Source of the DNA: Desulfurivibrionaceae bacterium
GTDB lineage: Bacteria > Desulfobacterota > Desulfobulbia > Desulfobulbales > UBA5123
Assembly (NCBI GenBank): GCA_030145325.1
Contig: JAQYVW010000036.1
Span: 1-32,410 of the forward strand
Direction: 5' to 3'
DNA length: 32,410 bases
Below the pieces are notes generated by a model, which saw only the letters and a list, made by a program, of their open reading frames with translations, was not told the DNA's origin and did not search any database. Shown in pieces: positions 21,748-32,410 of this stretch (position 1 is its first letter; the number at the start of each line of letters is the position of its first letter). The translations under genes and the position numbers were made by a program.

Positions 21748-23103
21748 TCATTCTCCGGCGTCCTCTTTCCTGATCAGTTCGCATAGTTCATCGGCCATGC
21801 TGTTGATCTCATCTTCGTCTTCGCCTTCTATCATCACCCTTATAACTGGTTCGGTGCCGGAAGGGCGCACCAGAATGCGCCCGCGCTCGCCCAGCTTTTG
21901 TTCCATGCTGGTCACCTTCTCGGGAAAGCCAGCCAGTCGTTGAGTATCGATACGCTGTCCGGTGCGGACATTTTTGAGTACCTGCGGGAAGGATTCCATG
22001 ATTTTTGACAACTCGGAGATTGGTTTGTTGCGTTTAATCATCACCGCCAGGAGTTGTAGGGCGGCCAGGATGCCGTCTCCGGTGGTGTTGTGATCAAGGA
22101 AGATCAGGTGTCCTGATTGTTCACCGCCGAAGTTGTATCCTTTAGCGCGCATGGCCTCGACCACGTAACGGTCGCCCACCGCGGTGCGGATCATCTTGCC
22201 GCCCATCTTCTCCATGGCGACTTCAAGACCCATATTGCTCATCACCGTGGTGGCCAGGGTTTTTTTGCGGAGCTTGCGTTGGCGCATCAGGTCGGCAGCG
22301 CAGATGGCCATGGTGTGGTCGCCGTCCACGATATTTCCTTTTTCATCGGCAACGATTAACCGATCACCGTCACCGTCCAGAGCGACGCCAAGATCGGCGC
22401 CAAGCTCCTTGACCATCTCTGCCATTCGTTGCGGGTGGAGGGCTCCGCATTGGTGATTGATATTGGTGCCATCCGGATTAACGCCGATGGCGGTCACCTT
22501 GGCGCCCAGTTCTTCGAAAACATGCGGAGCCACGCTATAGGTCGCGCCGTGGGCGCAGTCCAGAACAATATGGAGCCCATCCAGGGTGTGCTGGCGGGGA
22601 AAGGTGTTTTTCAGGGAAACTATATAGCGGCCCTTGGCGTCATCGATGCGGGTGGCTTTGCCGATCTCTTCCGCTGTGGGTCTTAATGCCTCCATCTTTT
22701 GGGAAAAGATCAGATCCTCTATCTCCAGCTCTTTGCCGTCGGGGAGTTTGAAGCCGTTCCGGGAGAATATCTTGATGCCGTTGTCTTGAAAAGGGTTATG
22801 TGATGCCGAAATTACCACCCCGGCGTCGGCGCGCATGCTGGAGGTGATGAAAGCGATGCCGGGGGTGGGCAGTGGTCCCACCAAGAGGACATCGACGCCC
22901 ATGGAGCAGATGCCGGCGGCCAGGGCATTCTCAATCATGTAGCCGGAGAGGCGGGTGTCCTTACCGATTACGATGCGGTGGTCATGTTTCATGTCTTTGA
23001 CCAAAAAAGCGATGCTGCGCCCTATTTGCAGGGCGGTTTCGGCGGTCATGGGATGGATGTTGGCGACGCCGCGAACGCCGTCGGTGCCAAAGAGTTTTCT
23101 CAT
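21748..23103 (-). CDS. glmM: phosphoglucosamine mutase
   Basis: GlmM converts glucosamine-6-phosphate to glucosamine-1-phosphate for UDP-GlcNAc, the precursor of peptidoglycan and lipopolysaccharide. The 451 residues show the start [14 protein letters not shown], the phosphoserine loop [14 protein letters not shown] (catalytic Ser101), the Mg2+ loop [11 protein letters not shown], the sugar-binding [10 protein letters not shown] and the phosphate-binding [12 protein letters not shown]. It follows cdaR by 21 bases. The cdaA-cdaR-glmM order matches that of Firmicutes, where GlmM binds CdaA and restrains c-di-AMP synthesis. Confidence 0.97.
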
Positions 23104-23124: not shown

Positions 23125-24108
23125 TTATTTTTTCTTGAACGGAGCCTTGATGATTAAGGTCACGGTGGCTGGAGAAATTTCAAATATTTTGGCCTGGGCT
23201 TCCGTCTCAATCTGGATGGGGATGGTGTATTTTCCCGGAGGGAGATTGTTTGCGGAAACAGTAGCGGTGAAGAGCGGTTGCAGATTCTTGACTTTAGAGT
23301 TCAAGCTGAGGGGGATATCTGCCCTGATAAGGATTGTCTTGGGGATGGTGACGGCAGTATTTGGTGACGTTAGGTGTTGGATACTTATGGGAATATTGGA
23401 TATTTTTCTGGTAATGGTTTTTTCCACTACCGTGAGGTGGGCAGTAACCGTTGTTTCACCGATCAGTTCGGAGATGCTTGGTTTTAGGTCAAGGGAGACC
23501 TCCCTGGTGACGGAGCCAGTCAGGTTGTGGATATCGATGGGGATGGTGGTTAGTTGAACTTGATCGCCAAGAACAGCCTGGGGGCCGGTGAGGGAGAGGA
23601 TCGGTGGTTCAAAGCTCACCGATTCAACCTTGTAGCCTCTGCCTGCTTTGCCGTTGAATACCGCCTTGATTGGTAGTTCGCGCCGGATCAAGCGGTCAAG
23701 GAGGAGGGTGATGTAGGGCGGTTGAATGCGGAGAACTCTGATTCCGCGTGGAAAAGAAATTGCATCTTCGTCATTTCTAACCAGCATGGAGCCGGGGGTT
23801 GCCTTGGAAAGATCCACAGCTCGTGACACATGTTGGTTGGCAATGCCGCGGATCAGGCCCCGGGGGCCGGTAACGGTCACTTCCAGTTGTTTTTTGAACT
23901 GGTTTGAGATGACTAAGTCTCGGGGTAAATTGACTATTTCCACCGGGATGTGGACGGTCATATCCACCTTATCTTCGCCAACCACGAAGTACCAGAGAAA
24001 AAGAGCGAAAAAAAGCGACAAGAGCTTGATTGCCCAGTTTTTTGTCCAGGGCAGAGAGTCTCTGCGTTGGGGGCGAAAGCCGATTACTTGTTTAACCAGT
24101 TTTTCCAT
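23125..24108 (-). CDS. cdaR: YbbR-domain protein CdaR
   Basis: CdaR is a membrane-anchored partner that modulates the diadenylate cyclase CdaA. The 327-residue protein has one N-terminal membrane helix (about residues 26-44, IKLLSLFFALFLWYFVVG). An extracytoplasmic part made of YbbR repeats follows; three to four can be traced from segments like VDMTVHIPVEIVNLP, RRELPIKAVFNGKAGRGY and REVSLDLKPSISELIG. The start overlaps the cdaA 3' end by 25 bases, indicating coupled translation. The nearest ribosome site, AAGGAG, is rather distant. Confidence 0.9.
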   Translation of the reverse strand: MEKLVKQVIGFRPQRRDSLPWTKNWAIKLLSLFFALFLWYFVVGEDKVDMTVHIPVEIVNLPRDLVISNQFKKQLEVTVTGPRGLIRGIANQHVSRAVDLSKATPGSMLVRNDEDAISFPRGIRVLRIQPPYITLLLDRLIRRELPIKAVFNGKAGRGYKVESVSFEPPILSLTGPQAVLGDQVQLTTIPIDIHNLTGSVTREVSLDLKPSISELIGETTVTAHLTVVEKTITRKISNIPISIQHLTSPNTAVTIPKTILIRADIPLSLNSKVKNLQPLFTATVSANNLPPGKYTIPIQIETEAQAKIFEISPATVTLIIKAPFKKK

Positions 24109-24878
24109 AGTGTCTGGGTTTGATACTCCTTGGGAACGAAAATAGCATCAAGGCGGCTACGCAGCGAAGATGCGTCGAGGTCGGTGGTGATGGCTCCGTG
24201 TTGTACCAGAGAGATTTGTCGGGTTTCTTCGGAAACAACGATGATGATGGCGTCGGTCTCCTCGGAAAGGCCGATGGCAGCCCGGTGTCTGGTGCCCAGG
24301 CGTTTACTGATGTAAGGGTTCTTGGTCAGGGGCAAAACACAACCAGCGGTGAGGATGCGGCCTCGGCGGATAACGACGCCACCGTCATGAAGGGGAGATT
24401 CGGTATGAAAGATGCTGAGCAGCAGCTCCTTGCTGGTATGGGCATCAATGGTCTGTGATGATTCGATATAGTCTTTGAGTCCGGTTTCACGCTCGATGAC
24501 GATGAGGGCGCCGATCTTGCGAGCTGAAAGTCTTTTCGCAGCCATGACTATTTCATCAAGGGCGTGAACGGTGTCTTCGTGGCTTTTGACGAAAGGTGTT
24601 TGTTGGCCAACTTGGGTAAGGGCGCGGCGGATGTCGCGCTGGAAAATAATAATGATGATCAGGAAGATGGAGCTTAAGAAGGTGCCAAGGAGCCAGTAGA
24701 GAGTAAGGAACTCAAGCTCTCGGGCGCCGAAATAAACGACAATGAGAACAGCAATGCCCACAAGCATCTGCACGGCGCGAGTGCCGCGGATGAGGAGAAT
24801 GATTCGATAGATAAGATATGAAACGATAAGGATGTCGCATACATCTTGCCATCGTAAGGCGCTGATAATGTCCTGCAT
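24084..24878 (-). CDS. cdaA: diadenylate cyclase CdaA
   Basis: CdaA makes cyclic di-AMP from two ATP at the inner membrane. The 264-residue product has three N-terminal membrane helices (about 13-30, 36-52, 58-80) and a DAC domain. Motifs are SPLHDGGVVIRRGRI (residues 162 on) and LGTRHRAAIGLSEE (195 on). RHR is canonical. The other signature reads DGG where the best-studied enzymes have DGA; activity is expected, as the change is small, but that is inference. It is the first gene of its operon. A weak promoter is proposed at 24982-24954. No clear ribosome site precedes the ATG. Confidence 0.93.
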   Translation of the reverse strand: MQDIISALRWQDVCDILIVSYLIYRIILLIRGTRAVQMLVGIAVLIVVYFGARELEFLTLYWLLGTFLSSIFLIIIIIFQRDIRRALTQVGQQTPFVKSHEDTVHALDEIVMAAKRLSARKIGALIVIERETGLKDYIESSQTIDAHTSKELLLSIFHTESPLHDGGVVIRRGRILTAGCVLPLTKNPYISKRLGTRHRAAIGLSEETDAIIIVVSEETRQISLVQHGAITTDLDASSLRSRLDAIFVPKEYQTQTLWKNWLNK

Positions 24879-25159: not shown

Positions 25160-25284
25160 CTTCTAGTTTTCCAACGGCAAGATGTTCCTTGGCGTGAGTT
25201 AATTTATGGCCCTAATAATTTTGTCCGACGTGGTGTCGGGGCGAAATATAATGAATTCAGTATTTTAAGTTTAGGAGAGTAGTC

Positions 25285-25560
25285 TTGGCAAATCATAAGT
25301 CAGCAATGAAACGGAATCGGCAGAACCATATCCGTCGTGAGCGCAATCGTGCCAATAAGACCCGGATTCGCACCGTGGTTAGAGCGGTTGATGAAGCAAT
25401 TGGCGAAAATGCCGTTGATAAGGCTCAGGCCGCTTTACTTGCTGCTATTCCGGTGATCAGCCGGGCAGCTATGAAGGGCGCGATCCACAAAAAGAATGCT
25501 TCTCGTAAGGTTTCCAGACTGACTCGGCGGGTTAATGCCTTTGTTCAGGCCAACGCATAG
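25285..25560 (+). CDS. rpsT: 30S ribosomal protein S20
   Basis: S20 binds 16S rRNA during early assembly of the small subunit. The 91-residue, strongly basic protein is entirely typical: ANHKSAMKRNRQNHIRRERN at the start, KAQAALLAAIPVISRAAMKGAIHKKNASRKVSRLTRRVN towards the end. It starts with TTG seven bases after AGGAG. Escherichia coli rpsT also uses UUG, where the weak start is tied to autoregulation; the same may hold here. It lies directly upstream of the trp leader. Confidence 0.97.
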   Translation: MANHKSAMKRNRQNHIRRERNRANKTRIRTVVRAVDEAIGENAVDKAQAALLAAIPVISRAAMKGAIHKKNASRKVSRLTRRVNAFVQANA

Positions 25561-25569
25561 TTCTAAATT
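25541..25569 (+). promoter_or_regulatory. candidate trp operon promoter inside the rpsT 3' end
   Basis: TTGTTC (25541-25546), 17 bases and TAAATT (25564-25569) lie just before the trp leader. Transcripts would begin near 25576, within a 9-bp hairpin (GGTGGTGCG 25572-25580, CGCGTCACC 25591-25599). That hairpin has no U-run, so readthrough from rpsT is also possible. Confidence 0.4.
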
Positions 25570-25620
25570 ATGGTGGTGCGTTGATTATTCCGCGTCACCG
25601 TCAGTAGCCTAGGTGGGAGT

Positions 25621-25692
25621 ATGAACCGTCTTTACAGCATGATGACCACCTGTGTTGGTTGGTGGCTTCGTCAACAGTGTATCCCATGGTAA
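25621..25692 (+). CDS. trpL: trp operon leader peptide
   Basis: This 23-residue open frame begins MNRLYSMMTTCVGWW and ends QCIPW before TAA. Its translation is preceded by AGGTGGGAG. Trp codons are in tandem at 25660-25665 and again as the last codon (25687-25689). Three Trp in 23 residues, next to a rho-independent terminator and before trpE, is the signature of a ribosome-mediated attenuation peptide. The internal ATG pair at codons 7-8 could also be used. The peptide itself is not expected to have another function. Confidence 0.88.
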   Translation: MNRLYSMMTTCVGWWLRQQCIPW

Positions 25693-25793
25693 TGGGCGCA
25701 TTTGTATGCTGAAGCGGCGGGATGATACCACTTACGTATGAACGCACTTTAAGAAAAGCCATGGGAGCCGAAAGGTTCCGTGGCTTTTTTTTT
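25682..25793 (+). promoter_or_regulatory. trp attenuator: antiterminator and rho-independent terminator
   Basis: Terminator: AAAGCCATGGGAGCC (25755-25769), loop GAAA, GGTTCCGTGGCTTT (25774-25787), with nine T at 25785-25793. Antiterminator: TCCCATGG (25682-25689), the last codons of trpL, is exactly complementary to CCATGGGA (25759-25766) in the left arm of the terminator. A ribosome stalled at the Trp pair (25660-25665) leaves 25682-25689 free, which favours readthrough. A ribosome that reaches the stop codon at 25690 covers it, so the terminator forms. A local hairpin CCCAT-GGTA-ATGGG (25683-25696) also competes. Confidence 0.85.
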
Positions 25794-25854
25794 GTCCGGC
25801 GGCGGTGAGAGCTTATCTGCCCGGATGAATTTGTTTCTTGTCGAGGAATTACTT

Positions 25855-27333
25855 ATGCACCATCCTGATATTGACCAGTTCAGGGAGTTTGCCTCATCTG
25901 CGGGCCTGATTCCGGTGTGTCGAGAGATCATTGCCGACCTGGATACGCCGCTCACTGTTTTTGCCAAGGTGGCCGGTGATGAATCCCACGCTTTCCTGTT
26001 TGAAAGTCTGGAAGGTGGGGAGAAATGGGGGCAGTACTCTTTTATCGGTCTTAATCCCATTACCATCTTCGAAAGTCGTGGCCAGAGCATTACCCTGCGC
26101 CGGGGGGAAGAGGTTACGGAGCAAGAAGGCAATCCCATTGAGGCGTTGCAGGATTTGCTGGCCTCTTTTGCGCCTTGTGCAGTGGCTGACTCACTGCCTC
26201 GCTTCTTCGGCGGCGCGGTGGGCTATATGGGTTATGATATGGTTCGGTTCATGGAACGGTTGCCGGAGAAAAATCCGCCCTTGGCGGAGTTCCCGGATAG
26301 CCAGTTTATGATTCCGCGCACAGTTCTCATCTATGATAGCCTTAAGCAGACCTTGACCATTGTTGAATGCGTGGTGGTCGGTGAGCAAAATGATCCTGAT
26401 GAACTGTACCGAGAGGCGCAGGCGCGCATTGATCAGGTGGTTGCCCGTTTACGGCAACCTTTGCCAGCAGCCATTGCTGCGCACCATGCCAAACCGCCCC
26501 ATACCTTTACATCCAATATGGAGCGGGATGAATTTCACGGAATGGTCAACCGGGCCAAGGAGTACATCCTGGCCGGGGATATTATTCAGGTGGTGTTGTC
26601 GCAACGGTTTCATACCACCACCGAGATGGAGCCCTTTACCCTTTATCGAGCCTTGCGGCATATCAATCCCAGTCCGTACCTCTTTTACTTGAAGCTTGGT
26701 GAGGTGGTGCAGATCGGCTCTTCGCCGGAGATTTTGGTGCGGCTGGAGGATGAGGATATAGAATTGCGCCCCATTGCCGGAACTCGCCGTCGGGGCGAAA
26801 CCGTGGCCGATGATCAGGCTCTGGCTGAGGAATTGCTGGCCGATCCCAAGGAGCGGGCCGAGCATTTGATGCTGGTGGATTTGGGCCGGAACGATGCCGG
26901 ACGGGTGGCTGAATACGGGTCTGTGGAGGTTCGGGATCTCTTGGTGGTGGAGCGTTACAGTCATGTGATGCATATCGTTTCCGGGGTGCATGGCAAGCTT
27001 GCTGCCGGTAAGAATCAGTTCGATGTCCTTAACGCCTGTTTTCCCGCTGGGACGGTGAGTGGAGCCCCCAAGATTCGCGCCATGGAGATCATCGAGGAGT
27101 TGGAGCCGGAGCGACGTGGTCCTTATGCCGGGGCGGTGGGTTATTTTAGTTTTTCCGGCAATATGGATATCTGTATCACCATTCGGACCTTTGTCATGCA
27201 TGGTAAGAATTTATGGATTCAGGCTGGGGCAGGGATTGTTGCTGACTCGGATCCGGAAATGGAGTTTCAGGAAACCATCAACAAGGCGCAGGGGTTACGG
27301 CGTGCTGTTGAATTGGTGGAAGAAGGATTTTGA
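25855..27333 (+). CDS. trpE: anthranilate synthase component I
   Basis: TrpE converts chorismate to anthranilate using ammonia supplied by TrpG, the first step of tryptophan synthesis. The 492 residues show the feedback segment FLFESLEGGEKWGQYSFIG, then GAVGYMGYDMVRFMERLP, VDLGRNDAGRV, PAGTVSGAPKIRAMEIIEEL, YAGAVGYFSFSGNMDICITIRT and AGAGIVADSDPEMEFQETINKA. The start is placed at ATG 25855, because GAGGAATTACTT stands before it. The longer frame from 25780 would be translated out of the attenuator stem and is rejected. The usual LLES inhibitor motif reads LFES. Confidence 0.96.
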   Translation: MHHPDIDQFREFASSAGLIPVCREIIADLDTPLTVFAKVAGDESHAFLFESLEGGEKWGQYSFIGLNPITIFESRGQSITLRRGEEVTEQEGNPIEALQDLLASFAPCAVADSLPRFFGGAVGYMGYDMVRFMERLPEKNPPLAEFPDSQFMIPRTVLIYDSLKQTLTIVECVVVGEQNDPDELYREAQARIDQVVARLRQPLPAAIAAHHAKPPHTFTSNMERDEFHGMVNRAKEYILAGDIIQVVLSQRFHTTTEMEPFTLYRALRHINPSPYLFYLKLGEVVQIGSSPEILVRLEDEDIELRPIAGTRRRGETVADDQALAEELLADPKERAEHLMLVDLGRNDAGRVAEYGSVEVRDLLVVERYSHVMHIVSGVHGKLAAGKNQFDVLNACFPAGTVSGAPKIRAMEIIEELEPERRGPYAGAVGYFSFSGNMDICITIRTFVMHGKNLWIQAGAGIVADSDPEMEFQETINKAQGLRRAVELVEEGF

Positions 27334-30686: not shown

Positions 30687-31302
30687 CCGTATCTTGGTTA
30701 GCCCGTTGTTATCGGTCGTTATTTTGGAAGAGCAGGTAGCGGTGGTGGAGACCTCTCCTTGTATCCCCGTCCGGAAGCCTGGGATGGCATGGTGCCGTTG
30801 CCTTGATACCGGGGTGTGAAGATCATCCGACAAGGTACCGACTTGGGAGAAAACCATGGGGCCGACTCCTTTCTAATCACCTCAATCCATCTTCTTTCAC
30901 CCTTGGCTAGGGGGGGGATCACTACAAGTAGTAGTGACGATTTTATACCTGCTGCAATCAGATGTGGCTCATAATCATGGGTCGCAACAGTATTGATTTT
31001 GTCTATATCCTTTTTGCCAAGTTCCCTTTTTCCATGTGATCAGGATGGCAAAAAACTTCCTCTCTCGTAATCTTGAGTCTTGATATTACTTTTAATCCGG
31101 ATGACTTCCGGGATTCCATACTAAACTAATCATCCCTTTTGGCCTGCAACTACCGTCGGAATTGATTTCTTACGTTTTGCATAGCAGAATGTTCATGAGG
31201 TGAAAAGTTGTGGGTTATGCTGCAACCGATTACAGTAACAATTCCCATGAAATTATGCTTACCCTCTTGATTCTAGAACATAAACTGCAAAGGATTGCCC
31301 AC
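30687..31302. other. gene-free stretch where trpB/trpA might be expected
   Basis: No frame here shows a recognised protein, an RNA gene, or a fragment of trpB or trpA. A hairpin TCACTAC-AAGTA-GTAGTGA lies near 30920-30940, without a U-run. Bases 30740-30900 are GC-richer than the rest and open on both strands over short spans (for example KPWGRLLSNHLNPSSF on the plus strand), which could be degraded coding sequence. The remainder is AT-rich and probably includes the promoter of the lipoprotein gene. Confidence 0.4.
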
Positions 31303-32410
31303 ATGCAACGTAATGCTTTAAGTTTACTTATAATTTCCATGTTCTTGCTGCTCGCCTGCGCAAATAATAGCGAGAACCGGCAAAGAACAATCATCATTGA
31401 TGATGCCCACCTGCTCACTGGTAATGCAGACTTGCTGCAATCTTATAAGGAATATAATCAGCAACTGCTCAAGGATTATCAGATCGATTTTCGGGTTGTG
31501 ACCACTGCCAGTGATACGGATATTAACACCTTTGCCCAGCGTGCTTTTTCGGCCTTTACCGCTGAGAGCGGGACCAAGGCAGGGCGGGCCATCCTCCTGG
31601 TGATAAACAGCAAGCAGGATTTGGCGCGGCTAGAAGTTTCAATGGCCCTTGAGCCCATTTATACTGATATCTTTACTTCCTTTATTGAAGAGCAACACAT
31701 GGTGCATTTTTTTCGTGATGGTCGTCTGGCCGAGGGGGTCTTTGCCACCACCGAGACCATCTATAGTCGCGCTGGGGATGCTGCCAAGGGTAAAGAATTT
31801 TTGGGTGAGATGCCCAATCGTTCACTGGGCGGCGGCGCAAAAACCAACGCAGATATTGGCAAGAAAGAGCTGAATGTTAAATCGGTCCAGCCCGTTTTGG
31901 CTTCGGTTACCGATAGTCCAGCCCAAGTCTTGGCTAAATATATTGAATCGCGGCGAGCTCATAACGATAATCCGAACCTGGATATCTTTACGGATGCTTC
32001 CAAGGTTTTTTTCCGCAACTGGACCGTTACCCCGGTGCAGATGGACAATGAGGTTCGGTTCTTTGGTAAGTGTACCGCAGCGGAAACAATCGTTGCTGAT
32101 GATCAGGATTTTGCGGTGGTTATGTTTCCCCTTAAGCAGCGAAAATGTTCCCCCTATTTCTTCCGGCAAGAGCAGGGCAGCTGGAAACTTGATTTCGCCA
32201 CCATGACTAAGTTGATCCGTTTTAATCAGGAAATGAAATGGCATCTTATTCTTGAGTGGCAAGAGAACCTGAAAAAACAGAATTATGCCAGGCTCACCCA
32301 AGAGGGCTTGTTGCCGCCCAAGGTCAGCGCCTTGCTTGCTCCTTATCTGTTTGCCTTTGTTGATTTTCGATACGATAAAAACGGCTTCCCTTATGACGAT
32401 TGGGGCAAGG
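31303..32410 (+). CDS. TPM-domain lipoprotein, 3' end outside the window
   Basis: The reading frame starts at ATG 31303 (AAAGGA nine bases upstream) and runs off the window after about 369 codons. A lipoprotein signal ends in LLLAC, with the lipidated Cys at residue 19. Residues of about 28-160 resemble a TPM domain, the fold once called TPM phosphatase and common in envelope proteins: IIIDDAHLLTGNADLLQSY, FRVVTTASDTDINTFAQRAF, KAGRAILLVINSKQDLARLEVS and FRDGRLAEGVFATTETIYSR. A poly-basic Ala/Ser linker follows. The second half (WTVTPVQMDNEVRFFGKC onward) looks like a separate ligand-binding domain I do not recognise. Function is unknown; envelope quality control has been proposed for some relatives. 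Confidence 0.8.
   Translation, partial: MQRNALSLLIISMFLLLACANNSENRQRTIIIDDAHLLTGNADLLQSYKEYNQQLLKDYQIDFRVVTTASDTDINTFAQRAFSAFTAESGTKAGRAILLVINSKQDLARLEVSMALEPIYTDIFTSFIEEQHMVHFFRDGRLAEGVFATTETIYSRAGDAAKGKEFLGEMPNRSLGGGAKTNADIGKKELNVKSVQPVLASVTDSPAQVLAKYIESRRAHNDNPNLDIFTDASKVFFRNWTVTPVQMDNEVRFFGKCTAAETIVADDQDFAVVMFPLKQRKCSPYFFRQEQGSWKLDFATMTKLIRFNQEMKWHLILEWQENLKKQNYARLTQEGLLPPKVSALLAPYLFAFVDFRYDKNGFPYDDWGK

Follow-up and report, generated by a model that had tools for sequence, protein, structure and literature searches.

Described trp Attenuators and the Present Locus

In the trp leader of Escherichia coli (trpL) a short peptide carries tandem Trp codons, antiterminator and terminator exclude each other, and the antiterminator cannot form while a ribosome occupies the stop codon; region 2 immediately follows that codon there, with the upstream region 1 as its pairing partner. 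Ribosome-dependent attenuation of trpE(G) is also described for Sinorhizobium meliloti (trpL or rnTrpL), which according to that description has no repression of initiation, uses consecutive Trp codons, forms the antiterminator upon Trp shortage and begins its transcript at the leader ATG (PMC7298713). The attenuators of Corynebacterium and Streptomyces are portrayed as having double or triple UGG codons in all cases, a terminator with a U-tract and strands common to terminator and antiterminator (PMC1262725). The mechanism is a textbook one, trp attenuation being known from enterics, Sinorhizobium, and Actinobacteria, and since this is so the interest of the case presented here is mainly evolutionary: it is a candidate attenuator assembled, it would seem, in one genus on a much older terminator that belongs to an unrelated gene upstream, and relatives across the order keep that terminator and show no such leader. 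An earlier report of this attenuator is possible, for instance in work by Vitreschak (2004) or Lopatovskaya (2010).

The candidate lies in a stretch of 32,410 nucleotides (hereafter the window, always meaning the whole stretch analyzed) from the 3.36 Mb genome of an uncultured member of the Desulfobulbales. Our preferred reading, to which we give a probability of roughly 0.7, is a ribosome-mediated transcription attenuator for trpEGDCF seen in one genus of this order. It resembles E. coli trpL in its Trp-Trp leader, its exclusive hairpins and the predicted blocking of the antiterminator by a ribosome at the stop codon. It departs from the E. coli arrangement in that region 2 belongs to the final codons of the leader and the AUGGG predicted to shield it lies further downstream, suggesting an antiterminator strand that doubles as coding sequence, and also in a terminator apparently common to rpsT and in sister species that have one putative control Trp codon. 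As far as the S. meliloti description goes, the transcript there starts at the ATG, whereas the ATG here follows a Shine-Dalgarno-like site and the promoter scan gave the leader none of its own. The attenuators of another phylum, those of Corynebacterium and Streptomyces, have, compared by description, double or triple UGG codons throughout, unlike the sisters here.

Sequence features, conservation in three species and fold calculations, which are reported below, lead us to infer that the leader is translated and responds to Trp, where transcripts start and end, and that the terminator was co-opted. With little charged tRNA-Trp, a ribosome would stall at the Trp codon or codons around 25660–25665 and leave region 2 (25682–25689) free to pair with region 3 (25759–25766), blocking the terminator. 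With ample Trp, it would move on to the stop codon, which immediately follows region 2, and cover that strand, and the terminator would form. Untranslated RNA would combine outer helix, leader hairpin, and region 2 hairpin in a three-way fold that tends to hold region 2, again leading to the terminator. The latter is probably the ancestral terminator of rpsT, in which case read-on from rpsT into the trp genes would depend on the switch.

Gene Neighborhood and Other Regulators

The gene order is rpsT, leader, trpE, trpG, trpD, trpC, and trpF. The rpsT gene for ribosomal protein S20 spans 25285–25560 on the plus strand (Pfam PF01649 on 25300–25557, 82 bits against a cut-off of 29.5), its TTG start at 25285 being our choice from the open frame, and trpE, the first gene of trpEGDCF, occupies 25855–27333 on the same strand (TIGR00564, 570.8 bits against a cut-off of 517.7). 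No trpB or trpA frame was recognized 3' of trpF (30687–32410), where the next large frame, containing a TPM domain, starts at 31210 and runs off the end. Genes on the minus strand include those for the diadenylate cyclase CdaA (24084–24878) and glmM (21748–23103). A sigma-70 consensus scan of the plus strand from 25200 to 25900 gave no sigma-70-like site, and hence none before the leader and none between the terminator and trpE.

Among other kinds of regulators, Rfam gave no match at gathering in the whole window. Around the leader, four matches appeared up to an E-value of 10, all far below gathering and none of them a Trp leader (RF00513), the best (E 0.027) covering the terminator alone and Thr_leader standing at E 3.6. 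A T-box was discarded (no match in the window or in its own genome), and the TrpR family was without a match in the three genomes of the genus, one of which is 78% complete.

The nearest trpE genes outside the window come from a Desulfobulbaceae UBA5123 MAG (L032, 88% identical) and from the MAG 4_1_May_SF_Bin57 (L033, 87%), referred to here as the sisters; two genomes of the same genus (G002 and G001) have the last 250 upstream bases in common with the L032/L033 records.

Leader, Pairing Strands and Terminator

A short leader ORF with a putative start signal stands upstream of the trp operon. It encodes MNRLYSMMTTCVGWWLRQQCIPW (25621–25692, plus strand), 23 amino acids from the ATG at 25621 to the TAA at 25690–25692, and is preceded by the Shine-Dalgarno-like AGGTGG (25611–25616; AGGTGA in the sisters). 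Trp codons begin at 25660, 25663, and 25687 (the last being 25687–25689), three of 23 against four of 1495 across the five trp proteins. The first two form the tandem (25660–25665, plus strand), and every coordinate in the original prediction proved right when checked against sequence and ORF. The sister peptides are MIRVNSVIAATAQACRWRRQQCIPW and MIRVNSVIVATAQACRWRRLQCIPW. In all three species AGGTG, ATG, stop codon, and both pairing strands are kept, and so is the frame, across a gap of 6 nt. The tandem is not conserved, both sisters reading Arg-Trp with the second codon (25663) alone retained. Relatives with the hairpins and without the Trp codons had been named beforehand as the observation that would speak against attenuation; this is partly the case, the two sisters having kept the hairpins with Arg-Trp in place of Trp-Trp and one Trp retained.

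Region 2, the 5' strand of the antiterminator (TCCCATGG, 25682–25689, plus strand), covers the end of Ile21, Pro22, and Trp23. Region 3, its 3' strand (CCATGGGA, 25759–25766, plus strand), is also part of the 5' arm of the terminator. The two are 100% complementary over 8 bp, which bears out both the exact pairing and the placement of its 5' strand within the last leader codons, third Trp codon included, that had been predicted. The intrinsic terminator (25751–25793, plus strand) has a stem with CATGG and the nine U that had been noticed (nine T at 25785–25793), and it folds as a single hairpin at −23.8 kcal/mol. By sequence and fold, antiterminator and terminator are mutually exclusive, with one strand common to both.

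The 173-nt region 25621–25793 folds better than 200 of 200 shuffles (z −3.42). With 200 mononucleotide shuffles per genus member, an exact complement of at least 8 bases to the terminator arm turns up in 2–3.5% of them in all three species, so that taken by itself the match is no more than modestly unusual. A generic terminator scan finds one site where shuffles give 0.9. The eight antiterminator pairs are invariant in the three species, and the proposed search for compensatory changes thus yields no covariation signal in either direction.

In ribosome-free RNA an outer helix is predicted between 25626–25640 and 25706–25720 (feature 25626–25720, plus strand), closing a three-way junction, together with a local protecting hairpin (25674–25705, plus strand; core CCCAU-GGUA-AUGGG) that would sequester region 2. 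A GCAU/AUGC hairpin (25698–25709) is also predicted within the antiterminator loop. The layout, first described as compact, is thereby not minimal, given that local hairpin and outer helix are predicted to hold region 2 closed. Protecting fold and terminator comprise 49 predicted pairs, 11 of which vary (eight remain paired in all three species and three are broken in one); 167 of 500 shuffles equal the pair counts of the protecting fold.

Ribosome Position and Predicted Folding

In a stall scan we folded only the RNA downstream of the ribosome, whose front edge was assumed to lie 12 nt past the A-site codon, with the RNA ending at 25766, 25770, or 25775. For the window species the antiterminator probability was 0.97–0.99 at A-site codons 11–16 and 0.75 at codon 17, a permissive stretch (11–17) that includes both tandem Trp codons; it dropped to at most 0.08 at codon 18, and from 19 onward, stop included, it was 0.00. 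A ribosome at the stop codon does mask region 2 in this downstream-only fold, as had been supposed. Codons 1–2 were also permissive (0.97–0.99), with 0.00–0.57 at codons 3–10. In the sisters, codons 14–18 were permissive (0.81–0.98), with 0.75 at codon 19, and the retained Trp is codon 17; their first codons were permissive too (0.60–0.98 at codons 1–4). That stretch holds one Trp among six codons, next to three Arg codons, and a single Trp within six is weak evidence of Trp control. Stalling at the last Trp codon gave 0.00 in the three species and, because it hides the antiterminator strand, this codon would not be a control codon.

The terminator arm was paired upstream with a probability of 0.99 when the ribosome stood at the second Trp codon; moving it to the stop lowered this to 0.24, and removing it gave 0.36. 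The contrast between stall and stop was reached by none of 1000 dinucleotide shuffles of 25621–25755, 40 of which had the arm paired at 0.9 or above when stalled.

The outcome depends on what the RNA behind the ribosome does. If it is allowed to fold, a lone ribosome gives an antiterminator of 0.01 (Trp14) or 0.29 (Trp15), and a second ribosome on the start codon raises this to 0.94–0.99 as far as 25772 and to 0.58 and 0.93 at 25778. The corresponding values are 0.00 for a lone ribosome and 0.72 falling to 0.02 with a second one in L032, and 0.95–0.98 in L033. A Trp stall hence frees the antiterminator strand in all three species in the downstream-only calculation, and in L033 only with a lone ribosome and upstream folding; the outer helix could even counteract antitermination by a lone ribosome. 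Without a ribosome, the antiterminator was at 0.03–0.11 for RNA starting at 25600, 0.09–0.12 at 25590, 0.19 at 25591, and 0.00 at 25606; RNA starting at the ATG gave 0.74 here, 0.90 in L032, and 0.44 or 0.48 in L033 in two separate calculations, and the ribosome-free values of the sisters span 0.06–0.90 depending on the RNA start. Once the RNA extends to 25793, the antiterminator is at 0.00 in every scenario run and the terminator at 0.88–0.90 in three of them, so the switch would need to be kinetic. A switch of this kind is plausible, although it depends on the folding model. Under the simple model the Trp-codon logic appears a good fit for the window species and a weak one for the sisters.

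Distribution in the Order and Origin of the Terminator

A DNA query containing the leader block, run against 257 Desulfobulbales genomes with three candidates scored in each, matched across that block, among the matches listed, in no genome besides the three of the genus. The remaining top DNA matches lie on the terminator, and weak ones (E above 0.003) align to other parts of the query. We also gathered 91 distinct sequences upstream of trpE from 111 loci. A recognized S20 end is present in 82 of them and a terminator by our criteria in 84, with CATGG near the stem in 74 of those 84, a strong conservation of that stem. The seven sequences without a terminator include one cut by a contig end (L063) and one that has a terminator by eye (L010). 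Three of the 91, all from this genus, have an exact complement of 8 bases ahead of the terminator; elsewhere the longest is 6.

A covariance model of block plus terminator, built from the three genus sequences, scored these at 128–145 bits and all else at 38.9 or less in the window and 89 loci (out of 131, near-duplicates and L063, which has no upstream sequence, having been left out). The same ceiling of 38.9 bits held outside the genus, among the matches listed, in a search of the 257 genomes with stricter filters. Matches at E 0.01 or better occurred in 88 genomes; the 85 outside the genus are taken as terminator look-alikes, judged by score alone.

This distribution is most simply read as an ancestral rpsT terminator to which leader and region 2 were added in this genus, loss elsewhere being the alternative. 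The terminator is probably older than the leader, and its having come first would explain why the leader ends in CCATGG and hence in a non-regulatory Trp codon. A genome of the same family (G003) gave no trpE hit at E 1e-100 and no leader match and is therefore uninformative on ancestry. A pattern scan of viral contigs and a search of plasmids were both without a match.

Frames of 6–45 amino acids with Trp-Trp within the 700 bases 5' of trpE occur in four of the 91 sequences (two in the window and others in L011/L041, L081, and L099). Those of the last three were rejected as leaders, lying inside the rpsT stretch or crossing the terminator. The second one in the window, MPLFRPTHSSKLWWCVDYSASPSVA (25535–25612), stops 5' of the leader and overlaps the end of rpsT; it was rejected because it begins inside that gene, and it is probably due to chance, the sisters having no such frame there. 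With these additional frames, Trp-Trp alone is too common to decide. For frames ending in Ala-Ser-Trp-Ile/Lys (L005/L007) or Thr-Thr-Trp-Ile (sisters) just before the terminator we found no coherent mechanism. A short frame also stands at 25706–25741 before the terminator, reading MLKRRDDTTYV here and MLRRRDKTTWI in both sisters.

The terminator might simply end rpsT transcripts, with trpE served by a downstream promoter and both the leader frame and the 8-base match incidental. The wide occurrence of the terminator against a complement limited to three sequences, the Arg-Trp of the sisters and the ease with which another Trp-Trp frame arises by chance in the same window all lend themselves to this explanation. 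We nevertheless consider it unlikely, as the consensus scan gave no sigma-70-like site between terminator and trpE, no shuffle switches as well as the actual leader, and a 48-base block (25675–25722, plus strand) that includes region 2 and the stop codon is 47/48 identical to each sister amid diverged flanks, with pairing strands and stop invariant. Identity to L032 and L033 is 60 and 55% in the 5' part of the leader (25621–25674), 98 and 98% in the block, 67 and 70% from there to 25755, and 88 and 91% in the terminator. In the first ten leader codons, nine base changes relative to L032 fall on first, second and third positions 5, 1, and 3 times (by eye), without a third-position bias, a point against the preferred reading. 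The original prediction is supported in part: a ribosome-mediated trp attenuator remains the best reading, antiterminator strand in the last codons included, but Trp-Trp is not conserved, and calling the arrangement compact leaves out the predicted protecting helices.

The End of the Leader and the Invariant Block

The last five leader codons and the stop are identical in the three species, without a synonymous change, and in every leader another Trp stands eight residues before the last one. The nascent peptide ending in QCIPW before the stop could on these grounds be the sensor, Trp inducing an arrest near the stop that keeps region 2 covered by the ribosome and imposes termination, and the antiterminator value of 0.00 with a ribosome at the leader end would agree with it. 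TnaC senses tryptophan as well, with the opposite outcome. Were this true, Trp itself, besides uncharged tRNA, would shut the operon through the terminator borrowed from rpsT. However, the same bases are needed for pairing, and in three species without a synonymous change the constraints on peptide and RNA are inseparable; we regard an arrest peptide as improbable next to attenuation by stalling at upstream Trp codons.

Direct binding of a ligand or protein to the invariant block, riboswitch-like and with an incidental leader frame, is very improbable, for although the nearly invariant sequence does not end with the antiterminator strand or the stop codon but continues to 25722, and no Rfam family accounts for the block, the alternative pairings (outer helix, local hairpin, and the GCAU/AUGC hairpin) can explain much of that invariance, and leader start, frame, and stop are kept.

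Within the block, the leader stop overlaps (TAATG, 25690–25694) the start of MGAFVC, a frame of six residues that extends to 25712 and whose bases are identical in the three species.
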